Shown: positions 45,601 through 48,600 of the stretch, piece by piece
How the letters are laid out: every line of letters begins with the position of its first letter
How positions within the stretch are numbered: position 1 is the first letter of the stretch
Source of the DNA: Lepus europaeus
Lineage: Eukaryota; Chordata; Mammalia; Lagomorpha; Leporidae
Length of the DNA stretch: 64,000 nucleotides
Assembly: GCF_033115175.1 (NCBI RefSeq)
Contig: NC_084834.1
Location: 91,841,808 to 91,905,807 of the forward strand
Direction: 5' to 3'
Notes under the pieces: model-generated
The model's database searches: none
The model's input: only the letters and a program-made list of their open reading frames with translations
Told to the model about the DNA's origin: nothing
Made by a program: the position numbers and the translations under genes

Positions 45601-48600
45601 CTCCAGAACTAAATTTACAAAAGCATGAAAACAAGAAGCAGTTAGGAAATAGATTCAGGAAACAATTTCACGTTCCTGGAGGAAGCTGAGCTCTCAGGGT
45701 GGAACAGACACTTTGATTTCTGTTGCTGTACACAGCCAGGTTTCCCAGTTATCTTGACAGAAGGGAAAAGGATTATGGTCAAGGGAATCTTAAAACATGG
45801 TTCGACTAAGCAAACATCTGCTTCTTACAAAAATCACTCAGAGCCTTGGCTAGCCTGATGCATGCCGTGGACCTCAAAGAAGGTCCAGCACGCAGCAGCA
45901 CACAATCTGCTGGCTCCTCCCTGTGAAGGTGTTCACGCTCACGATGGGGTTCCCGTTAATGCTCCACACGTGGATGTAGGTGCCAGCGCAGGACATGTGT
46001 GGCAGGTAGGCCTGCCCAATGGCTCTGTTTAGATAGGAGCTTTGGATTAGGCTTACACACTCAGGGTTCTGAAACCCCGTCTCAAGACGGCAGGCTCGGG
46101 GGCACGCGTGTGGGCTGGGATGCATGTGCAAGTGTGTGCAGGAGGCCCAGGGAGTGGGGTGGGAGTGGGTTGACAGCCTCGCTGTCTGTAGCACGTGACT
46201 GTGACCAAGAGGTGGTCATCGGCTGCTCTCTGCTTTGACAAAGCAAACAGGCACAAAGAAAAGTCTCGAGAAAGAAAAAGTCAAATATTTGAAGAGACTA
46301 CAAAAGTAAACACTCTATTGATTCTCTTTTCTGAGGAGGCTCAACACACAGAAAATGAAGGAAAGGTAAATCGCATCTAGGCTTCCGATGGAATCACCTG
46401 GGATCCGGGCCAGGGCACAGCCCAGGGCCTCTGGAAGCATCTTCCGGCTGTGGGACTCTCATAGGGAAGAGACTGTCCCTGCATACTGTGTTTCCCCAGA
46501 AGTCAACTGACAGCCTGAAACCCTAGTACTTATGCAGTGCACATTTTAGCAAGCCCAGTGTAACATGGGAGTCCCATGTTACGTGACCTTCCTTGTATCA
46601 GTCAAGCTGTCAACTGGTCAGCAGGACTGACAGATCTACTTAGCAGGAAGGAAAGAGGCCACGCCACGTCACTGGCAGTCCCGCTGTCAGATAACACAGG
46701 GGCCGAGGCTGTGCGAATCGGGCGAGAGTCTGCTCAGCAATACTGCAGGCTGCAGACCGTGCCACACGTTTCACCTAAATGGGGGCTGTAAAAACTCTAG
46801 AAAGTCCTTCCCTGAGCTCACGTGCGTGGACAGTGCCCTCCATCGCGTAATGGTCGCTGTGACGTTCTCTGAGCTCGCTTACCCGAACCACCCCGTCCGA
46901 GTGGCCTGTCACTATGACGTTCTGGGTGTCCCACTCATTCATCTCCGACACGCAGCAGCACACAATCTGCTGGCTCCTCCCTGTGAAGGTGTTCACGCTC
47001 ACGATGGGGTTCCCGTTAATGCTCCACACGTGGATGTAGGTGCCAGCGCAGGACACGATGTCCCCCTGAAAGGAAAGGGAAGCTTCATTCTCCTTGTTCT
47101 TGCGAATTACGTTCTGATTTCAGAGGCCAACTGGATCCCTGCCTAGCTCTCAGAAAGCCTTCCAGACCTCAGAGGAGTGGCTGAGCAACTCCTGAGGCAG
47201 CCTGGAATTCGATGCTTGATGATTAAAAAAACAGATCCTTTGAATGGAGCCTTCTTTAAGGCTTTCAAAGTTGAGTGGATGCGCCATGGCACAGGGAGTC
47301 ACAAGGGGGCCTAAGTGGGGTCACGCCCCCGGCATGCTGCTGAGCAAGCTCTCTGCAGTGGGAGGGGGAGGCGAACTGTTCCTCTCGCCCCCGCTGCACT
47401 TTTCCTCTCCATGTCGGGGCACGGATCCACCTCCACTCACTTTCACACAATGAGTCCAACCGTGCAAGCCACAGAGTGGAAGGCACATTCTTCAGTCCAG
47501 CTATGGTTTTCAGTCTCTTCAATAAACTCAAAGGTGAAGTTTTTCTAACACTTGTAGTATCCTCTTTTAAAAACCAGTATTCACAAGAAAGGTGAGGAAA
47601 AAAAAAGAGAGGAAAAAGTAAACTGGCACAAGGATCACTTTTTTGGCAAACTTTTTAAAAAAGATTTAAATATTTATTTGAAAGGGAGAGAGAGAGAGAG
47701 AGAGAGAGAGAAATCTTCCTTCTATAGATTCACTCCCCAAATGGCTGCAATGGCCAAGGCTGGGCTTGGGTGAAGCCAGGAGCCAGGAACTATATCCTGG
47801 TCCCACACTGGGTACAGGGGCCCAAGCACTTGGACTACCATCTGCTGCTTTCCCAGGTGCATTAGCAGGGAGCTGGATCAGAAGTGGAACATCTGGGACT
47901 CAAATCAGCACCAAATCCTAAGGCTCCTTGAGCTCATGTTTTCAAAAGTTCTGAAGATAGAAAAGAAAAAGTTTTTTTCTCAAATTCTACCGGGCTGCGT
48001 AGAATTTGAATCTGGTGGGAACACAGCTTACCCTGTGTCTGACACCGTGATTGATACTTTATTAGACATCCCACTTCACCCTTGCAGCAACCTGGTGAGG
48101 CTGGACACCACGAATTGCTTTTCAGAGGATGAAAGCAGGGTAGAAAAAACTTAAGGAACTTGCTAATCGCAGAATCACGATGTTAAGCCAGCTCTCTGTA
48201 GTCCCAAAGCTTATACACCATGCTAAGCTTCCTCTGTCATCCCTGAGATAACCTGAATGTCACAATGCTGGGTTCCAGCTCAGAAGAGACTGGTGTTCAG
48301 CACAGTCCCAGGACACCTGAGATGCTACAGGGACTTGTCAACTGCAGAGGGTGAGCCAGAAGCTTAAAGCAGTACCACTGTCAGAGAGAAGGTAAAAGGG
48401 AGGCAGGGCTGAGTGATAATGACGGCGGGGGGGGGGAGGGGGGCACTGCCAGTGCCAAGCTCACTACTGTTCCTAACACCCCCACTCCCCACCCCTGCTC
48501 TTCCACTGAATGACAAGAACCCTATCCAAACCTAATCACAAATAATGCTTTGCAAAGCACTGCTGTGTAAGCCTCTGTGTAGTCACAGAGCCAAATTCTG

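Follow-up and report, generated by a model that had tools for sequence, protein, structure and literature searches.

Several described systems leave short copies of existing sequence at a new place in the genome. Templated insertions linked to MMBIR exist as human germline variants (PMC8421209), and the class 2 templated insertions described in PMC5110952 carry neither a target-site duplication nor poly-A. For short template switches in apes, PMC7954356 reports that structure gains stability at the switch point itself and that the ancestral sequence shows a lesser increase. The Exonize analysis finds full-exon events in fewer genes than partial, inter-boundary, and intronic ones (PMC12343006). 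Here we describe a 107-bp block from the interior of a WDFY3 coding exon that recurs, letter for letter, in the intron that follows, and we consider it probable that this copy arose as a single templated insertion at the DNA level, with the nearby exon as template. A literature search on WDFY3, rabbit, and exon returned no title on such a duplication among the matches listed.

An exon block and its copy in the following intron of WDFY3

We analysed a window of 64,000 nucleotides, the whole stretch of Lepus europaeus DNA considered here, which contains no N bases and carries WDFY3 on its minus strand. We performed a Pfam scan on ten open frames picked by eye from the window and found BEACH in two, WD40 families in one, and FYVE in one; six of the ten, including the frame of the source exon and that of the copy, gave no match. 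We took the gene as WDFY3, and this identity, already proposed in an earlier note made from the sequence alone, agrees with the BEACH and WD40 families found in neighbouring frames. Elsewhere on the minus strand, LINE-1 ORF2-like open frames were recognised by eye at 14986-16015 and 17740-18120.

The source exon (46883..47065, minus strand; 183 bp) comprises 61 codons in phase 0/0 and was delimited by its translation, by its acceptor (TTTCAG/GGG) and donor (CGG/GTAAGC), and by protein matches. The phase of 0 claimed for both of its ends holds, given 61 whole codons and a following exon that starts on a codon. That next WDFY3 exon (45512..45608, minus strand) was recognised by translation and the GT at its end, with exon ends set by eye, and the intervening intron (45609..46882, minus strand; 1,274 bp) runs from the source exon donor to it. 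The copied block (45889..45995, minus strand) sits in this intron, as had been claimed for the intron transcribed next, in the same orientation as the donor block (46949..47055, minus strand) and 280 bp from the next exon, which begins at 45608. The two blocks form a direct repeat with equal letters at 107 of 107 positions, so the perfect direct duplication that the earlier note reported is real; its distance of 1,060 bp is correct as the offset from start to start but not as the gap between the copies, which is 953 bp. The donor block lies fully inside the exon, again as claimed, and omits the first 10 bp and the last 66 bp, so that neither splice site was copied. A whole-exon tandem duplication is a poor description of this arrangement, as the exon ends and both splice sites are absent from the copy and the two blocks are separated rather than adjacent.

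Comparing the window with itself by BLAST yielded 297 distinct matches (E up to 1e-5). Among these, the 107-bp pair (E 6e-51) was the sole self-match of at least 50 bp with at least 93% identity in the whole window, and also the sole self-match touching 45600-46300; at this E value, a chance origin of the match is excluded. A repeat finder lengthened the match to 112 bp at 98% identity, with two adjacent mismatches and a 3-bp match added on the left side. Past this extension the surroundings of the two copies have no likeness, in keeping with the unrelated flanks described earlier. The same repeat finder gave no inverted repeats of at least 30 bp within 43000-50000. Tandem repeats of AG / AGAGGC occupy 37583-37666 of the window, and simple repeats of lesser size occur at 41714-41760 and at 47686-47711. 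The short repeats may be of lagomorph type.

Junctions and fold of the insertion site

We then examined the flanks of the copied block. Within 25 bp on either side, the flanks had two 4-bp strings in common, neither abutting the insert; with shared strings this short and set apart from the junctions, there is no target-site duplication (none of at least 5 bp in these 25-bp flanks). Nor was poly-A present at either junction within 60-bp flanks, where the sole run of at least five A or T was AAAAA (45829), separated from the junction by 55 bp. The visible junction homology consists of the 3-bp match beyond two mismatches on one side, and further shared bases may hide inside the 107 bp. The donor is still present, the source exon being intact beside its 107/107 copy. 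These are among the features by which a templated insertion is recognised: a donor that is present and identical, with neither a target-site duplication of at least 5 bp nor poly-A. An L1-mediated retrocopy, or class 1 TSI, was rejected on the same absence of target-site duplication and poly-A. A search for further templates of the 60-bp flanks across 42000-50000 on both strands gave a longest match of 9 bp, which is ordinary, as 59 of 200 random segments had a best match of 9 bp or less; with no second templated piece, a multi-step rearrangement was also rejected.

A single base separates the left junction from a perfect hairpin with a 7-bp stem and a 6-nt loop (45868..45887); proximity of this order, 2 bp or less from the outer end of a hairpin of this kind, holds for 1.3% of the positions in the window. 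We reconstructed the empty insertion site (45840..46046) by joining the flanks without 45889-45995, an inferred sequence in which a small deletion would go unseen, and found that it folds unusually well as single-stranded DNA. In a first comparison, the fraction of segments that matched the joined site was 0.006 (n = 838), or 0.004 among GC-matched segments (n = 258). Against window segments taken every 60 bp from 22000 onward and subjected to DNA folding, segments as stable as the joined site numbered 1/700, 3/699, and 15/699 at half-widths of 20, 30, and 40, and 4/699 and 12/698 at half-widths of 50 and 60; the signal weakened with wider segments (49/698 at a half-width of 80 and 65/697 at 100). 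The corresponding counts for GC-matched segments were 1/168, 1/165, and 7/235 at half-widths of 20, 30, and 40, 1/225 and 2/295 at 50 and 60, and 7/294 and 24/313 at 80 and 100. Shuffling the joined site produced sequences that folded as well in 4 of 200 cases. The ends of the donor block were unremarkable as hairpin sites (62/699 and 76/699 for one end, 136/699 and 203/699 for the other).

The fold of the joined site lends modest support to a stall or break linked to a hairpin, a test that was chosen after the fold had been seen. The wider flanks of ape template switches are less stable than background in the account of PMC7954356, and this counts against a reading based on the fold. An extended inverted repeat between the flanks was tried and rejected, as random positions equalled it in 0.14 and 0.21 of 3,000 cases under two scorings. 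The intron also contains, ~565 bp away from the copied block, an inverted repeat (46560-46582) with a perfect 10-bp stem and a 3-nt loop (GTAACATGGG AGT CCCATGTTAC).

Origin, age, and possible function of the copy

In the templated insertion that we propose, a DNA end at the hairpin-prone spot in the intron would have stalled or broken during replication or repair and annealed about 1 kb away within the same gene. The annealed end would then have copied 107 bp of the WDFY3 exon, returned, and been joined by end-joining or microhomology, possibly by MMBIR/FoSTeS-like switching or as a templated patch. From then on, the copy may have been a passive, untranslated segment of the intron, whose distance from splice sites would account for its being tolerated. 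As a mutation it looks ordinary in kind, without sign of function.

Other origins would leave a similar trace. The earlier note had raised an assembly or consensus error, in which a chimeric read, gap filler, or polishing step placed 107 bp in the intron, and exact identity together with an exonic source would suit such a misplaced piece of exon. We consider this unlikely: both flanks belong to one WDFY3 intron and stand in order between its two exons, which makes a simple misjoin improbable, the window is free of N, and the slight likeness at one junction is too small for a misjoin based on overlap. The note had also offered gene conversion, by which an older copy would have been held identical to the source exon. 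Conversion between copies this close together would likewise leave zero mismatches; however, 107 bp of homology amid unrelated flanks is short for conversion, and a single insertion requires fewer events and suffices, which renders this option superfluous and, in our judgement, barely credible.

Another alternative is an RNA template, with reverse-transcribed WDFY3 mRNA or pre-mRNA sealing a double-strand break in the gene it came from, as in class 2 insertions. The block is all exonic, and by chance a local 107-bp template would be so in 77 of 2,400 starts (within 1.2 kb on either side) or 77 of 4,000 (within 2 kb), or about 2-3% of the time; the odds for 5 kb on either side (77/10,000) were set aside as too low, as the source exon alone was counted. 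This figure leans a little towards RNA. Experimental templated insertions are, moreover, rich in transcribed sequence and fewer under reverse-transcriptase inhibitors, as reported in PMC5110952, and L1-like reading frames, identified by eye, are present in the window. Against an RNA template, the block spans no exon-exon junction and thus gives no sign of spliced RNA, the experimental inserts in the text of PMC5110952 came from distant rather than nearby regions, and the position of the donor, at a distance of 1 kb within the same gene and in the same orientation, speaks for a DNA template close by. Taken together, we regard an RNA patch as an improbable origin, and the more specific proposal that WDFY3 RNA patched a hairpin-linked break in its own intron, leaving a scar of same-gene RNA-templated repair in a mammalian germline, as slightly less probable still. 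A single templated insertion from the nearby exon, made at the DNA level, is the origin that we prefer.

The absence of any change across the 107 bp sets an upper limit to the age of the copy. At the 95% level this limit is ~5-19 million years if rates of 1.5-3e-9 per site per year are assumed (modelled at 1.5, 2.2, and 3e-9, with the CpG rate multiplied by 1, 5, or 10 and all change placed in the copy). PMC6065068 gives a hare rate of 2.8e-9 per generation with a 2-year generation; this rate, near 1.4e-9 per year, moves the bound to ~20 million years without CpG correction. The excerpted text of PMC4148185 gives no rate usable for dating. PMC6065068 uses 11.8 million years for the hare-rabbit split, so under an upper bound of ~5-19 million years an origin before the split is, strictly speaking, still allowed. 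The earlier description of the event as very recent thus stands insofar as the identity fits such an event, but the age itself is only bounded; zero mismatches are compatible with a very recent event without proving one.

Next, we considered whether the copy could be a functional or incipient exon, acting as a decoy, as an alternative exon, or as a modifier of source-exon splicing. The copied frame has no stop within the block and belongs to an open frame of 113 aa; the block contains a donor-like ATC/GTGAGC (score 4.7), which the source shares, and ~640 bp upstream in the transcript, at 46638, there is an acceptor-like site (score 4.1). However, no genuine splice site was copied, acceptors scoring at least 4 are absent between 45752 and 46638, and donors scoring at least 4 are absent from the copy to 45400 except for the weak site in the block. 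The splice matrix behind these scores was a simple one, and it is weak, as it scores <4 for the genuine acceptor and the genuine donor of the next exon. The frame also meets a stop 4 codons beyond the block.

To this we added a protein search, in which the open frame of the copy was compared with 5.8 billion proteins, yielding 39 candidates and 38 matches. All 38 were the canonical exon, covering 58-61 of its 61 residues to the exon end at 88-100% identity, and in 38/38 the match continued into the remainder of the canonical exon. Proteins with two blocks numbered 0/38, in a database that may omit this species and in which intron frames may be unpredicted. The downstream side of the block was visible in all 38 matches; 17 of the 38 start at exon residue 4, at or beside the first residue of the protein, and there the upstream side is unseen. 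Alignments of P0015, P0018, and P0029 that run past the block proved to be canonical exon sequence plus chance extension. The source-exon protein (46883-47065) is identical in P0005 (61/61) and 88-98% identical in the other 37, and is thus a very conserved segment of WDFY3.

Exonisation accordingly found no backing in the splice scan, the reading frame, or the 38 protein matches, and we think it very improbable that the copy serves as an exon or is becoming one. As judged from sequence features (no splice site, an early stop, and protein matches to the canonical exon only), there appears to be no sign of function. The earlier note had suggested that the copy could affect pairing of the pre-mRNA. 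This did not hold, as direct repeats are identical rather than complementary and the interval 43000-50000 has no inverted repeat of at least 30 bp; pairing of the two copies within one transcript is ruled out because they share the same orientation. An Rfam scan of the window returned nothing at the gathering threshold.

Consequences and comparison with known systems

The likely effects of the copy are technical. In any genome that has this allele, short reads contained in the 107 bp would align at two positions; the numbers of such read starts are 32 for 76-nt reads, 8 for 100-nt reads, and 0 for 150-nt reads. Variants in this conserved exon of WDFY3 could thus escape notice or be called wrongly. 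The direct repeats may also slightly raise the chance of a deletion between them, which would remove the last 66 bp of the exon along with its splice donor; the product would be an exon lacking a donor that reads through to the stop 4 codons beyond the block. As a further clean case, the copy also bears on the question of whether hairpin-prone sites and exonic donors are preferred in local templated insertions.

Among described systems, Exonize intronic matches resemble this locus in placing exon sequence within an intron of the same gene, whereas that intronic class, as PMC12343006 describes it, requires a set fraction of the exon, and the WDFY3 copy holds 107 of 183 bp with both ends absent. 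The small duplications of Drosophila are alike in being <500 bp and more commonly interspersed than tandem; they come from another animal, and their locations and breakpoints are undefined in the account of PMC6380325. Short-range template switches in apes likewise have secondary structure at the switch point, but they make nearby inverted repeats and the WDFY3 copy is direct (PMC7954356). Class 2 TSI/TSIP, as reported in PMC5110952, share a templated copy, an intact donor, and the absence of both target-site duplication and poly-A; the experimental set spans 73-414 bp, a range in which the 107-bp copy falls, whereas donors there are distant and the WDFY3 donor is ~1 kb off in the same gene. 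MMBSearch, the caller described for MMBIR/FoSTeS insertions, reports inverted copies with templates within 100 bp, unlike this direct copy with its template 1,060 bp off; the insertions themselves resemble the WDFY3 copy in their nearby template and copy-and-paste character, and are known as germline variants (PMC8421209, PMC5120786).
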